Virus record (IMG/VR): IMGVR_UViG_3300009164_000194
Coordinates: 1-34,343 of that record
DNA from: a virus
DNA length: 34,343 bases
Strand: one strand, 5' to 3'
A program made the translations under genes and the position numbers. The notes beneath the pieces are model-generated. The model searched no databases, was not told the DNA's origin, and saw nothing but the letters and a program-made list of their open reading frames with translations. Numbering within the stretch: position 1 is the first letter of the stretch; every line of letters begins with the position of its first letter. This document shows positions 24,933 to 34,255 of the stretch, one piece after another.

Positions 24933-24940
24933 TATAAATA
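24933..24940 (+). promoter_or_regulatory. T4-type late promoter, rightward (gp4 block)
   Basis: Plus strand reads TATAAATA, identical to the T4 late consensus, 28 bases before the gp4 ATG at 24969. Transcription would begin near 24946. The element lies within the expected 5' leader of the leftward transcript. Confidence 0.8.
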
Positions 24941-24954
24941 TTATAGTTATTAAT

Positions 24955-24962
24955 TATTTATA
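24955..24962 (-). promoter_or_regulatory. T4-type late promoter, leftward (gp48 block)
   Basis: Minus strand reads TATAAATA, the full T4 late consensus recognised by RNA polymerase with gp55 and gp33. It lies about 30 bases before the gp48 start at 24924. Transcription would begin near 24949. It faces the rightward promoter at 24933-24940. Confidence 0.8.
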
Positions 24963-29950: not shown

Positions 29951-30883
29951 TTAATCATCGCTCGCTAGTTTTGAGAAATATGACAATGACTCGTCATCGT
30001 CATCAAAGTCAACTTCCTTTTTAGGAGCTGCCTTTGGCGCGGCTGTTGGGCGTGCTGCAGATGTTGCAGGTTGTACATAATTTGCATCTTCGCCCAATGT
30101 TACTTCTTCTGCTTTCTTAATTGCAGTAGTGCCTCCAGAAAGAACCATGTCTAGTTTTTTCTTAAGATCGTCATATGACTTGAAGTTTTTAGGATCAAGA
30201 AACGCTGTAAGGGAATGTTGCTTGTTCCAAATATTCTCGATAATAGAATCATCCTCGGAAATTGAACTTGGTGTATCAAACTCTGATTTATCGTAATTGC
30301 GATATCCTTCCACATTACGAATTTTTAATTTAAAGTTTGCACCTTCCCAAAAGTCGAACGGATTAAGTGGCTTTTCGTCCTCGAACTGTGGTTCAGCAAC
30401 ATCCTTAATTTTGTCGAAAATCTTTTTACCAAACTTAAACAAAAATACTTTGCCTTCATTTTCAGGATGCTTAGAATCCTGAACGATAAGAATATTAGTG
30501 TAGTAAGTTAGTTTGCGCTTTTGTTTTCGAGCAACTTCTTTATTGGCCTCTGAGCCTGAATTCCATAACTCAGTATTAAACTCAGATACAGGATCAGTCT
30601 TGCCAATAGTTGTTAGTGAATTTTCAATGTACCATTTTCCGGTTGGTCCTTGAAAACCGTGATTCCAAACTCTAACCCATGGAAGTTCTTCGCCCTTTGG
30701 GGGAGCTAAGAAACGAATAACAGCGTAGCCGTTGCCTGCTTTGTCAACCTCAGGTTGCCAGAAGCGGTCGTCATTTCTATTGTTAGATTCGGATTGGGGA
30801 TTTGCGATCTTTTCAACTTCTTTCATTAAAGAATCGAAGCCGCCGCGGGATTTGCGGAGATCTGCTAGTGAAGTGTAAGCCAT
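29951..30883 (-). CDS. 32: Single-stranded DNA-binding protein, T4 gp32 family
   Basis: 310 residues (T4 gp32 is 301). It coats ssDNA in replication, recombination and repair and recruits gp59 and other replisome parts. Seen: N-terminal basic cooperative domain; core with GYAVIRFLAPPKGEELPWVR, then NHGFQGPTGKWYIENS and EFNTELWNSG; a basic RKQKRKLTYY loop (LAST-like); PAAP-rich linker and acidic C-terminal tail with DFDDDDES. There is no cysteine anywhere in the protein, so the structural zinc site of T4 gp32 (H64, C77, C87, C90) cannot form. A good AAAGGA precedes ATG 30883. The leader has two repeated blocks (see separate entry). Very secure. Confidence 0.94.
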   Translation of the reverse strand: MAYTSLADLRKSRGGFDSLMKEVEKIANPQSESNNRNDDRFWQPEVDKAGNGYAVIRFLAPPKGEELPWVRVWNHGFQGPTGKWYIENSLTTIGKTDPVSEFNTELWNSGSEANKEVARKQKRKLTYYTNILIVQDSKHPENEGKVFLFKFGKKIFDKIKDVAEPQFEDEKPLNPFDFWEGANFKLKIRNVEGYRNYDKSEFDTPSSISEDDSIIENIWNKQHSLTAFLDPKNFKSYDDLKKKLDMVLSGGTTAIKKAEEVTLGEDANYVQPATSAARPTAAPKAAPKKEVDFDDDDESLSYFSKLASDD

Positions 30884-30892
30884 AGTATGTCC

Positions 30893-30933
30893 TTTCGTAT
30901 TAACGGTGTATGGTTTTCGTATTAGTATTAACG
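30893..30933 (-). promoter_or_regulatory. gp32 leader with paired direct repeats
   Basis: On the minus strand, CGTTAATAC occurs at 30933-30925 and again at 30905-30897, and TAATACGAAA at 30924-30915 and 30902-30893. The first copy includes the stop codon of the upstream small gene and the second ends at the Shine-Dalgarno of gp32. T4 gp32 represses its own translation by binding an unstructured leader; these repeats are a candidate operator here. Confidence 0.45.
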
Positions 30934-31116
30934 TTTTTTAATTTTTTGATTAGCGTATGCATAATCTAAGTACTCATCAAACGCATCGTCATCTTTATTG
31001 AACGATGCTACATTATATATAATCTTTCGATGTTTGTCAATCTTCTGTGTGCCCTTTTCAACTCGGCGCATTTTCTTTTCACGATCATAATAATCGTTCT
31101 TCTTAAACTTGTCCAT
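30928..31116 (-). CDS. Small basic hypothetical protein
   Basis: 62 residues, strongly charged (MDKFKKNDYYDREKKMRRVE; IIYNVASFNKDDDAFDEYLD), helical and without membrane segment. No family recognised. It lies between the coiled-coil gene and gp32 in the replication/late-transcription operon. Its size and high charge resemble small accessory proteins of T4-like phages. A GGTAGGAG sequence 20 or so bases upstream is too far for an ideal ribosome site, so translation may be moderate. Confidence 0.6.
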   Translation of the reverse strand: MDKFKKNDYYDREKKMRRVEKGTQKIDKHRKIIYNVASFNKDDDAFDEYLDYAYANQKIKKR

Positions 31117-31145
31117 TTTAAAAAATCAAGGCTCCTACCTTAAAG

Positions 31146-31367
31146 TTAAACATCTTCTTTGCCCTTAGCTTTAACCTTTAGGAAAGGCCAAGCCGCCATT
31201 CTCTTATTTAATTCCATTTGACTGTGTGCCAATTTAATCAAATATCTTTGTGTCTCTTTTAGAGATTCTTGCGTTGTTAAAAGCGATTCTTGTAACATTA
31301 AAATATCTTGTTCTAAACGCTTAATCTTCTGCGTTTTTAATTCCAACTCGTCTTCTAAAGATTGCAT
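31146..31367 (-). CDS. Small coiled-coil protein overlapping the gp59 end
   Basis: 73 residues. An uninterrupted coiled coil from about residue 2 to 45 (LEDELELKTQKIKRLEQDIL; MLQESLLTTQESLKETQ), then a Trp/basic tail (AAWPFLKVKAKGKEDV). Its start lies 47 bases inside the 3' end of gp59, in another frame. No clear Shine-Dalgarno, so it is probably coupled to gp59 translation. No family recognised. Because coding potential continues for 130 bases past gp59, I take it as a real gene. Confidence 0.6.
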   Translation of the reverse strand: MQSLEDELELKTQKIKRLEQDILMLQESLLTTQESLKETQRYLIKLAHSQMELNKRMAAWPFLKVKAKGKEDV

Positions 31368-31941
31368 CGTATTTTTCCATGTCGATTAAAAGAAATGGTT
31401 TGTACTTTTTGATAAGTCTAGAAACATCAGGCCACACTACCGTGTCACTAATCTCTCGATCAAACCTCTCGGTAAATTTATTTAGTCTTTCCAAAATAAC
31501 TAAAGTTTCTATACTAATTGTATTTCGTAAGAATGCTTTAATTATATATGGATGCTGACCTTTTGACACCGCAAAAATATCTTCAATTTTTAGATTAGAT
31601 TCTTCCAAATCATTAATAATATTATCTAATTCTTGTTCAAAATTGTATGATAAACTCTCAACACGCTTTTTCCACTCTTTATACCGTTGGCCGGCTTCTA
31701 AATCGAACATCCCGCCCCAACGGTCACCTGACACAAAATTTGCAACTAGAAAATTTGCAACTTCTTCATCTGAATAGCTTTTAGCAATTTTTCTAATTGA
31801 GAATAAATCTTTACGTTTAGCATAAGCTTGTCGACTTGCCCGTACTCTACCCTTTTGTTGAATCACATCATAATTGTCGGTTGTGAAATGTAATCGCAAA
31901 GCTAAGTACATTTTATAAACTGAGTATTCATCCATTATCAT
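31321..31941 (-). CDS. 59: Replicative helicase loader, T4 gp59 family
   Basis: 206 residues (T4 gp59 is 217). It loads the gp41 helicase onto gp32-coated forks. Typical segments: MDEYSVYKMYLALRLHFTTD, then NYDVIQQKGRVRASRQAYAK, a NFVSGDRWGGMFDLEAGQRY segment, and WPDVSRLIKKYKPFLLIDME near the end. All-helical, basic N-terminal half. It begins in an ATGA overlap with gp33 and lies three genes upstream of gp32, its binding partner. Very secure. Confidence 0.94.
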   Translation of the reverse strand: MIMDEYSVYKMYLALRLHFTTDNYDVIQQKGRVRASRQAYAKRKDLFSIRKIAKSYSDEEVANFLVANFVSGDRWGGMFDLEAGQRYKEWKKRVESLSYNFEQELDNIINDLEESNLKIEDIFAVSKGQHPYIIKAFLRNTISIETLVILERLNKFTERFDREISDTVVWPDVSRLIKKYKPFLLIDMEKYDAIFRRRVGIKNAED

Positions 31942-32207
31942 AGGGGTAATTTACCGCGCGGCCTCATATAGTTTTGTTCTTCTGCTTCGTTTTGAATTTT
32001 ATCTTTTAACGATTGGTTAATTAAATTCGCAACAGCTTCAACATCAATATCAATCTCATTACAATATTTTATTACTGCATCCATATAACCTATACTTTCG
32101 ATATACACCTTTTCCTCAATGTATAATGAAAATTCATTTTGTGATCTAAATCTTTTAGTTATAATTAAACTATCGGTCAATACTTCGTCTAAATTAAGTT
32201 CTGTCAT
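31938..32207 (-). CDS. 33: Late transcription coactivator, T4 gp33 family
   Basis: 89 residues from ATG at 32207. gp33 tethers RNA polymerase carrying gp55 to the sliding clamp to activate late promoters such as those at 24933-24962. The core IGYMDAVIKYCNEIDIDVEA, then VANLINQSLKDKIQNEAEEQ and NYMRPRGKLPL, is characteristic. An ATG at 32234 would add nine residues, but the inner start (MTELNLDEV) has an AGAAGA before it and overlaps the bilin reductase gene by only 14 bases. Stop overlaps gp59 start (ATGA). Secure. Confidence 0.9.
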   Translation of the reverse strand: MTELNLDEVLTDSLIITKRFRSQNEFSLYIEEKVYIESIGYMDAVIKYCNEIDIDVEAVANLINQSLKDKIQNEAEEQNYMRPRGKLPL

Positions 32208-32880
32208 TTGGTTCTTCTGGAAATAATACTTCATCCATAAAAGTTCTAAATACCTTTTCGTCGATACCTAAATTAATCATCATGGCAGGGGTATGAGGAT
32301 TCATTTTTTGAAACTTACAATAATTATTGTATTTCTCTTTATATGATTCGCCTGTTTTCTCAACACATCCTACATTATATAGGTAAACGTGTAAACTTTC
32401 AATAGCTATATCAGCTAATTTGTCCAATTCTTCTTCTTCGGATATATTGCCTGCCGCAATCATGCCTGGACTAAAAATTTGAGTTGCCCAATCGGGTAAC
32501 ACTCTGGGTTTATTCCATTCTAATTTTGAAGAACGATCAAGGAACCATGCATATACTGGGCAATTTCCATTTTTAGAAAAATCATGGAATGCACCTGTAA
32601 TCTTATTTGCTCCGCATACTACATCAAACCCAAATATAGGAGTAGGATCATCAAATTCTGGAAATATAGTCATGTGCATAACCCAGATCTTTTTTGCTTC
32701 TCGTGCATCTACAATTTCTACGTGCGCGCGACGATAATTTCTGTTAGTAAAAATATAATTTTCCCAAAGGTATCCATCACCTTGTTCTGCAGTATATTTT
32801 AATTCATCATCTGTGGTTTGTTCCAATGTCTCAAGAATATTTTGAGACAAAGGAATCATTTTATCCCATACTAAAGACAT
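32194..32880 (-). CDS. pcyX: Ferredoxin-dependent bilin reductase, PcyX-like
   Basis: 228 residues. Reduces biliverdin IX-alpha to a phycobilin using host ferredoxin. The diagnostic core is FPEFDDPTPIFGFDVVCGAN, then KITGAFHDFSKNG, matching the PcyA/PcyX-type P-x-F-G-x-D-V-V block. Candidate catalytic residues: E55 (RAHVEIV), H69 (VMHMTIFP) and D86 (FGFDVV), equivalent to PcyA E76, H88 and D105. As I recall, phage PcyX also uses H69 and D86, and PebS lacks the histidine, so PcyX is the best fit; PcyX makes phycoerythrobilin by four-electron reduction. The C-terminal helices include YLYNVGCVEKTGESYKEKY. It starts one base inside the heme oxygenase stop (TAATG), with AAGGA nine bases upstream, and overlaps gp33. 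Family secure; subtype and product need biochemistry. Confidence 0.88.
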   Translation of the reverse strand: MSLVWDKMIPLSQNILETLEQTTDDELKYTAEQGDGYLWENYIFTNRNYRRAHVEIVDAREAKKIWVMHMTIFPEFDDPTPIFGFDVVCGANKITGAFHDFSKNGNCPVYAWFLDRSSKLEWNKPRVLPDWATQIFSPGMIAAGNISEEEELDKLADIAIESLHVYLYNVGCVEKTGESYKEKYNNYCKFQKMNPHTPAMMINLGIDEKVFRTFMDEVLFPEEPNDRT

Positions 32881-33407
32881 TAATTAAATTCCTTAGCAAG
32901 TGCAATATTATAATCAAAAGCAACGCATGCTTCGGGTCCCATGTCATCAGTTAATTTAGCTCGGAAGTTGTTTGTTAATTCTTCCTTATTTTCAAACTGA
33001 AACATCTTGCCTGAACCAGGGACAAGCTTTGCAAAAATTTGTCCACCATTTAGATCACCTAAATATCGAACATACATATGTGCAATTAAATCTTCAGGTT
33101 TAGTAATGTCCATAATATATTGAATATACTTCAATGTCGGCTCTTTAATTGTATATGTCTTATCCGGAGTGACAAGTTCTTGAAAGTCTTCAAAAATTGC
33201 AGATGCACGATATAATCCAGCAAGTCCTTCATATGTACCTAGCTTAGGTCCTGTGATAGTTTCCATTGCATGATATATCAAGTATAACTGATATAAGTAT
33301 TCAGCATACTTATCTTTGCTAACACGCTTTTGAAAAATCTCTTTAATAAATGGTTGCGTTTCCGCTTCTTTGTGTTTTTCGTGGGTTTGTTCTTTTAATG
33401 TAGACAT
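32880..33407 (-). CDS. ho: Heme oxygenase (heme to biliverdin IX-alpha)
   Basis: 175 residues, shorter than cyanobacterial HO1 (about 240). It opens heme to biliverdin, CO and ferrous iron, using ferredoxin electrons. Seen: proximal heme ligand H12 in THEKHKEAE (human HO-1 H25 region); the family signature MYVRYLGDLNGGQIF (residues 111-125), including G117, D118 and the G121-G122 pair on the distal helix; helical throughout, no C-terminal membrane anchor, so it is soluble. It lies directly before the bilin reductase gene, so its product would be handed on. The start has no clear Shine-Dalgarno and comes right after the stop of the three-helix membrane gene (33410). Very secure as a family member. 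Confidence 0.95.
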   Translation of the reverse strand: MSTLKEQTHEKHKEAETQPFIKEIFQKRVSKDKYAEYLYQLYLIYHAMETITGPKLGTYEGLAGLYRASAIFEDFQELVTPDKTYTIKEPTLKYIQYIMDITKPEDLIAHMYVRYLGDLNGGQIFAKLVPGSGKMFQFENKEELTNNFRAKLTDDMGPEACVAFDYNIALAKEFN

Positions 33408-33409
33408 AA

Positions 33410-33721
33410 TTATTTAAATAGTATAAGTGCAAGAAGTACCGAATGAATTATAAATCCTACGCCAATAGTTACAATGTGGAGAATATCTTTTAAAATTACT
33501 GCTCGGACAAACAGCATAGATAGTCCTGCCCAAATGAATAAAATAAGATCAACGGGCGGCATCTTATCTGATAGACCAGACATGACGGAAATCATTGTCG
33601 GGACTGTTGCGGCATGAATAAGTACAATACCAATCCATGCAATTGTTTCAGCAGTAGCAACAGTTAATGTTGTTCTGCAATAATTAATAACATCTTGTAG
33701 TGTAGGATATTTAAAGTTCAT
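33410..33721 (-). CDS. Three-helix membrane protein, holin candidate
   Basis: 103 residues with three hydrophobic helices at about 24-46, 57-75 and 80-101, and a short N-terminal amphipathic part (MNFKYPTLQDVINYCRTTL). A Lys/Asp pair (K78, D79) between helices two and three is the only internal charge there. No family recognised. Its place three bases after a cell-wall hydrolase gene and its small size make a holin plausible. The other holin-like gene at 27509 competes for that role, and a membrane helper for the heme/bilin genes immediately downstream is another option. Confidence 0.6.
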   Translation of the reverse strand: MNFKYPTLQDVINYCRTTLTVATAETIAWIGIVLIHAATVPTMISVMSGLSDKMPPVDLILFIWAGLSMLFVRAVILKDILHIVTIGVGFIIHSVLLALILFK

Positions 33722-33724
33722 AAT

Positions 33725-34255
33725 TTATCTGTAAAAAATATGGTTACCAATTTTTGCGATTTGTTGACGTTTCCAACCAGGGGAAACATATGTTGCATGA
33801 TAATAAAGTGCATCGGTTAATCCAGCTAATCGGAATCCTTCAAGTAAAACTTTCTTAGCTACCTCATAAGATTCTTTATATGCAGATTGGTGAATTGGTC
33901 TTGCTTTTGTAGAAGTTTCGCAGTACCAACTAAATTGGCAAATCACTTTCTCATATACTACATTCTTTTGGTAAACTACTTTGCATATATCATTAGGAAA
34001 TCCAGCATTTGCTGCTCTGTTAATAGTTACTTGTGCTACAGCAACTTTACCTTCGAATGATTCGTTACCTGCCTCGTGGTAAATATTTTTTGCCAAACAA
34101 TCTAATTGTTGTTCTCTGACTGCAACCGTTGCGGTGTTATCATCAAATTTAGATTGTTTTAAATTTTGTAGTTTTAATGTTGTTACTTGTGTAAGTGTTG
34201 ATATTAAAAATACTGCGGATACTGCTACTAAAACTGATTTTGTATATGTTTTCAT
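33725..34255 (-). CDS. Cell-wall hydrolase, SleB/CwlJ type (endolysin)
   Basis: 176 residues. An N-terminal hydrophobic segment (residues 7-26, SVLVAVSAVFLISTLTQVTT) is a signal or signal-anchor, then a short linker and a hydrolase_2 domain from about 50. Seen: CLAKNIYHEAGNESFEGKVA with the catalytic glutamate E61, then VAQVTINRA, CQFSWYC and ALYYHATYVSPGW. The family hydrolyses peptidoglycan glycan strands (lytic transglycosylase-like). An export segment without lipobox suggests a SAR-type or secreted endolysin that works with a pinholin or holin next to it. It is preceded by a hairpin leader and has no ideal Shine-Dalgarno. Family secure; lysis role by inference. Confidence 0.88.
   Translation of the reverse strand: MKTYTKSVLVAVSAVFLISTLTQVTTLKLQNLKQSKFDDNTATVAVREQQLDCLAKNIYHEAGNESFEGKVAVAQVTINRAANAGFPNDICKVVYQKNVVYEKVICQFSWYCETSTKARPIHQSAYKESYEVAKKVLLEGFRLAGLTDALYYHATYVSPGWKRQQIAKIGNHIFYR

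Follow-up and report, generated by a model that had tools for sequence, protein, structure and literature searches.

A heme oxygenase–bilin reductase cassette upstream of gp33 in freshwater T4-like phages: a probable route to phycocyanobilin with in-place exchange of the reductase type

Phage cassettes that pair a heme oxygenase (HO) with a ferredoxin-dependent bilin reductase (FDBR) are already known, the described reductases being PebS, PcyX and the PcyA of phage CB_2. Cyanophage PebS belongs to the same superfamily as the enzyme described here and is likewise a phage FDBR paired with a phage HO, but it represents another FDBR branch, gives a much weaker match and shares 13-16% identity in structure alignments. 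Marine phage PcyX (EBK42635, PDB 5owg; also present in pelagiphage Mosig EXVC030M), a type of enzyme that forms phycoerythrobilin by way of 15,16-dihydrobiliverdin, is closer, as it falls in the FDBR AX clade and has an HO gene directly upstream with overlapping ends; Mosig is moreover a T4-like myophage, whose FDBR is 38% identical to ours. The third system, vHemO plus vPcyA/X of the freshwater phage CB_2, is compared here by its published description: CB_2 is a 527-kb pmoC phage with a predicted Methylocystis host (PMC7674155), and its FDBR, which lacks the Asp55 of PcyX, yields phycocyanobilin (PCB) when assayed, a product that the authors link to the missing Asp55 while calling the phage bilin pathway enigmatic (PMC11480375). 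PcyA itself requires Glu76, His88 and Asp105, with Ile86 important for catalysis and Tyr238 serving as hydrogen-bond partner of Glu76 (PMC9800206). Glu76 is PcyA-specific, is needed for reduction of the 18-vinyl group and is absent from PcyX and pre-PcyA (PMC10151467). It is puzzling that relatives of the phages that infect SAR11 and methylotrophs should carry a bilin pathway.

The window, by which we mean the whole stretch of 34,343 nucleotides analysed, is an IMG/VR record that is itself a 34-kb fragment, and derives from a freshwater phage. At one end, the following genes succeed one another on the minus strand:

33725..34255, minus strand: cell-wall hydrolase, likely endolysin (PF07486, 5.9e-25)
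33410..33721, minus strand: 103-aa hydrophobic protein, possible holin, directly upstream of the HO gene, with synteny kept in ~30 loci
32880..33407, minus strand: heme oxygenase, 175 aa (Pfam PF01126 Heme_oxygenase, 3.9e-25, above the curated cut-off)
32194..32880, minus strand: ferredoxin-dependent bilin reductase, 228 aa, Glu-type, AX clade, predicted to form phycocyanobilin (Pfam PF05996, tree)
31938..32204, minus strand: gp33, late-transcription coactivator (PF16805 Trans_coact, 4.9e-21; conserved start at 32204)
31321..31941, minus strand: gp59, helicase loader (PHROG 269, 4.5e-62)
30928..31367, minus strand: a pair of small ORFs (62 aa and 73 aa) located between gp59 and gp32, kept in the window lineage
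29951..30883, minus strand: gp32, ssDNA-binding protein (PHROG 224, 1.3e-116)

The remaining genes encode baseplate, neck, tail and terminase proteins, all T4-like; no tRNA was found within the window and defence-system models gave no match. The hydrolase and the 103-aa protein (33410-34255), the latter with several hydrophobic stretches and no family match in Pfam, PHROG and further profile searches, adjoin the cassette and form a likely endolysin-holin pair.

The initial annotation had read these genes, from the letters alone, as a heme-to-bilin pathway inside the gp33-gp59-gp32 operon of a phage that makes a reduced bilin, probably phycoerythrobilin (PEB), in time with the switch to late genes. 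Its two ORFs are confirmed, sharing base 32880 in a TAATG, as are the motifs (H12 and GDLNGG in HO, PIFGFDVV in FDBR), and profile and structure searches uphold both family assignments (PF01126 with HmuO/HO-1, PF05996 with PcyA/PcyX). The sequence likewise supports a phage-borne route from heme through biliverdin to a reduced bilin within this unit, and the window indeed holds no phycobilisome or photosystem gene; the PEB product and the late timing, on the other hand, fare poorly, as set out below. The overlap of the reductase with gp33 is also real, although its length depends on the start chosen: the ORF caller placed the gp33 start at 32234 (41-nt overlap), whereas relatives keep ATGACAGAAC at 32204, a start retained in both members of the sister pair L019/L060 described below, which gives an overlap of 11 nt.

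The HO shares with canonical enzymes such as HmuO and HO-1 the proximal histidine (His12), the GDxxGGQ distal helix (G117-D118-L-N-G121-G122-Q123), an equivalent of Arg183 (Arg149) and the all-helical fold, but it is shorter in its C-terminal half (175 aa versus 205-235); it also has Lys5. Across 50 phage HOs, H12, G117, D118, G121, G122 and Q123 are invariant and R149 almost so. The closest solved structure by sequence is a bacterial HO (5kzl, 2e-16), and the AlphaFold model (pLDDT 96.3) matches HmuO and HO-1 in Foldseek with TMq ~0.83. The reductase is placed among FDBRs by the Fe_bilin_red profile (PF05996, 4.8e-16, 59.6 bits against a cut-off of 31), by its fold (AlphaFold model with pLDDT 94.8; Foldseek match to PcyA at E ~1e-12, TMq 0.8) and by the central aspartate; the general pattern of FDBRs is retained, along with His53, His69 and Asp86. 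Three codons matter most for what follows:

32716..32718, minus strand: Glu55 (GAA), at the position of PcyA Glu76 and PcyX Asp55, from alignments and sequence
32674..32676, minus strand: His69, equivalent to PcyA His88, invariant in 60 phage FDBRs
32623..32625, minus strand: Asp86, equivalent to PcyA Asp105, invariant in 60 phage FDBRs

Close relatives give dN/dS values of 0.02-0.08 (reductase) and, in most comparisons, 0.03-0.08 (HO). When the window itself is set against close relatives that carry a window-type HO, the ranges are 0.06-0.08 (reductase) and 0.03-0.08 (HO), and values of up to 0.25 appear where the HO is more diverged. Profile matches, the state of the catalytic residues, the AlphaFold models and the purifying selection thus point to two functional enzymes.

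On balance we favour the following account, which we regard as probable though well short of certain. HO would open host heme, giving biliverdin IX-alpha, iron and CO, and FDBR would reduce biliverdin by four electrons taken from host ferredoxin, most likely to PCB, since it retains the PcyA acid-base set Glu55-His69-Asp86. The cassette would most likely be read together with early or middle replication genes, and the reductase behaves as an exchangeable module, replaced in place in some sister phages by an Asp-type, PcyX-like enzyme that is expected to make PEB. The genes and their position, the swap, the selection and the intactness of the catalytic residues are seen in the sequences; enzyme activity, product, time of expression and use are predictions.

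The association of the two genes is widespread. We retrieved 218 loci with a reductase, and HO is also present in 205 of them, a recurrence that speaks against chance pairing; the ends of the two genes touch or overlap in 187 of these 205, and the adjacency of hemO and pcyA/X in the described viral hemO-pcyA/X-alaS cassette (PMC11480375) is found in the window as well. In 105 retrieved loci with both genes, some of them one contig retrieved twice, FDBR lies directly upstream of gp33, overlapping it in 94 and separated from it by a gap of 60-100 nt in 10, and comparison of gene order with residue type identifies these 10 as Asp-type loci. The full order HO-FDBR-gp33-gp59-cc73-D62-gp32 recurs in relatives at 52-93% reductase identity. 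A large group of T4-like phages share one fixed site for the cassette, just upstream of gp33-gp59-gp32. Elsewhere its site differs: in Mosig and three further loci (L118, L120 and L123) an Asp-type cassette precedes gp13-gp14-gp3 instead of gp33, and in Mosig it lies among 2OG-Fe(II) oxygenase genes, four of which precede HO-PcyX (L066, 3599-8684) along with a gene named ferrochelatase. That name is probably wrong, as the gene has no match to PF00762, and ferrochelatase was set aside as a partner of the cassette because no such match was obtained even there. Reversed order, with FDBR before HO, is seen in two Asp-type loci (L224 and L226). HTVC008M and Melnitz (L231/L232), the isolates nearest by gp6 and gp32, gave no FDBR match; in Melnitz a tmRNA lies just upstream of gp33, where the window lineage has HO-FDBR, and both isolates carry curli genes near the gp33 locus. 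Naming a host from such nearest isolates (phages of Methylophilales and Pelagibacter) was abandoned, identities of 38-57% being too distant, and so was a bacterial origin of the reductase gene, for which only six genome contigs matched, mostly MAG contigs and possibly phage.

Within this fixed setting, the reductase alone has been exchanged. Seven contigs from seven IMG metagenomes (L058-L064) combine a window-type HO (85-87% identical to that of the window) with an Asp-type FDBR. The clearest pair is L019 (Glu) and L060 (Asp), whose DNA is 95-100% identical through HO, gp33, gp59 and gp32 but only ~50% in the reductase, with break points at the reductase start codon at one end and just before the gp33 start at the other; this is an exact single-gene replacement, in which the Asp allele carries along a spacer of ~80 nt. 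Two different backbones carry the Asp allele (L059 near L017/L019, L058 near L004/L010), and the Glu allele is likewise found on both, so that the reductase gene has moved by recombination. In the converse case, L020/L022, HO was replaced (53%) and the reductase kept at 91%, hence each half of the cassette is exchangeable alone. One contig (L137:5325-6666) carries two tandem reductases after HO, Asp-type then Glu-type, with an 8-nt overlap; alaS is also present on this phage contig, in a copy that contains a single in-frame TGA. An HO-FDBR cassette as such is of a known kind; what is new is the variant seen here, a Glu-type clade at the gp33 site whose reductase type is exchanged in place. The papers searched describe no such exchange, and we know of no report of it.

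The swap amounts to a natural experiment, two phages differing almost solely in their reductase. If the products differ and the host is shared, pigment identity is either selected, through a receptor or light, or irrelevant, as in iron supply and biliverdin disposal; because sister phages differ so cleanly, by an expected blue-green versus an expected pink pigment, the purpose of viral pigments becomes testable. That HO serves to supply phage replication with iron taken from host heme while the reductase merely removes biliverdin, whatever the pigment, is a serious contender, if somewhat short of an even chance. An iron role has been proposed before (PMC11480375), HO nearly always accompanies the reductase, predicted PCB and PEB types interchange with nearly everything else unchanged, and no GAF or phycobiliprotein domain, the sort of bilin-binding gene for which the initial annotation had left room, scored over the cut-off in a profile search of 33 long related contigs. 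These contigs are fragments, however, so that a receptor could be encoded elsewhere or by the host, and a waste step would not obviously need the type-specific residues kept in both types nor the strong purifying selection on the Glu type. The lone phycobilisome match, at 16.9 bits below the cut-off and within a 2199-aa ORF, was taken as chance, and a phage-encoded bilin receptor was accordingly dropped. A plant-type ferredoxin gene occurs, among the searched contigs, only in Mosig, a point against the favoured account; ferredoxin and any bilin receptor would have to come from the host.

A role as signal or chromophore for a host protein such as a phytochrome or bilin-binding globin, with a reductase type fitted to light colour or host receptor, strikes us as rather doubtful. 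The HO and PcyA of CB_2 do give a working phytochrome chromophore in coexpression (PMC11480375), the type swaps suggest selection for one or the other product in different settings, and both alleles coexist in one metagenome (dataset 3300042895, with L020 as Glu and L060 as Asp); against this stands the lack of a receptor among the searched contigs. Only tentatively, then, and as a speculation that we would put below an even chance by a good measure, do we suggest that the gp33 site is a natural pigment-switch locus, at which freshwater T4-like phages whose relatives have non-cyanobacterial hosts would change bile pigment by replacing the reductase alone (Glu to PCB, Asp to PEB) while keeping HO and the rest, with selection, be it for light colour, host receptor or redox, maintaining the locus. 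With regard to CB_2 beyond the cassette, alaS, which that phage carries as valaS, was not found in the window or in window-type contigs, all of them fragments, but is present in four other FDBR-bearing phage contigs (G020, G024, G041 and G043), and an AmoC search, aimed at the pmoC link, was silent in the 33 contigs and in the controls as well.

As to the product, the triad of the window enzyme is Glu55-His69-Asp86, against Asp, His and Asp in PcyX 5owg and Mosig. Of an initial set of 94 aligned sequences, in which the references are counted, 65 are Glu-type, 24 Asp-type and two Gln-type at position 55, and Glu55 is shared by the window and all 32 Glu-type representatives. Position 67, which corresponds to PcyA Ile86 beside the catalytic histidine, is Val or Ile in 32/32 Glu types (Val in the window) and Met in 26/26 Asp types. 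A tree for which column 55 was masked places the Glu-type phage enzymes, that of the window among them, in one clade with support 96/93 (86 in an earlier quick tree), apart from all Asp types and hence from the clade of 5owg and Mosig, although the Asp types themselves may not form one clade; the tree does not order its basal fork, so that Glu may be ancestral or may have been regained within the phage clade, with either one change or two required for Asp. Glu55, Val67, the Glu-type clade and the assayed CB_2 enzyme without Asp55 together make PCB the better prediction, and we consider PCB rather than PEB the somewhat more probable product.

PEB, the default of the initial annotation, was accordingly set aside as the most likely product, and a PcyX-like function despite Glu55 appears unlikely, though it has arguments of its own. 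The nearest solved structure by sequence is PcyX 5owg (4e-47), and the closest isolate, Mosig, is Asp-type. PcyA of cyanobacteria, cyanophages and alphaproteobacteria shares the Glu76-His88-Asp105 equivalents and a matching fold with the window enzyme, but identity is ~22% and its Tyr238 is replaced by Phe214, a residue whose conservation among phage FDBRs, Glu-type and Asp-type alike, is 90% or more; the PcyA equivalog model NF002760, whose cut-off is 206 bits, gives the window enzyme only 76, less than the Asp-type enzymes of L061 (100) and Mosig (90). An Asp-to-Glu change made in PcyX by Ledermann et al. (FEBS J) reportedly failed to turn it into PcyA, so that residue 55 alone does not decide the product. 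More generally, FDBR products are poorly predicted by single residues (PMC13193486). Against a PcyX function, nevertheless, the PcyA-like Glu55 and Val/Ile67 separate the window type strictly from all Asp types, the enzyme sits in a separate clade, and CB_2 offers a precedent for PCB formation. Under the favoured PCB reading, the Glu-type clade would widen the phage PcyA-like set well beyond CB_2, and the Glu/Asp sequence pairs should be useful for finding the determinants of product choice. Two phage reductases carry Gln at the Glu76/Asp55 position (L091:2333-3007 and L124:6001-6669), as does the E76Q PcyA mutant of PDB 3i95. That the cassette consists of decaying or inactive genes, or is an assembly artefact, is extremely improbable: contig L002, from a different record, is identical, ~100 loci are syntenic, dN/dS is close to 0.05 and the catalytic residues are invariant.

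As to timing, the coupling to gp33 had been taken to suggest expression with the late genes. The T4 late-promoter consensus, TATAAATA, is rarer in the window than chance would give (9.2 copies expected), being present in two copies:

24933..24940, plus strand: TATAAATA, late-promoter motif of the T4 type, 29 nt upstream of gp4 (motif search)
24955..24962, minus strand: TATAAATA, late-promoter motif of the T4 type, 31 nt upstream of gp48 (motif search)

Within the 34-kb window no copy precedes the HO-FDBR cassette, and late expression through gp33 was rejected on account of this absence and of the rarity of the motif. Since TATAAATA precedes gp4 and gp48 and not the cassette, expression with the early or middle replication genes appears more likely. 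The two divergent motifs are themselves likely T4-type late promoters; both lie in the gap between the divergent gp48 and gp4, and they occupy the same place in several relatives.
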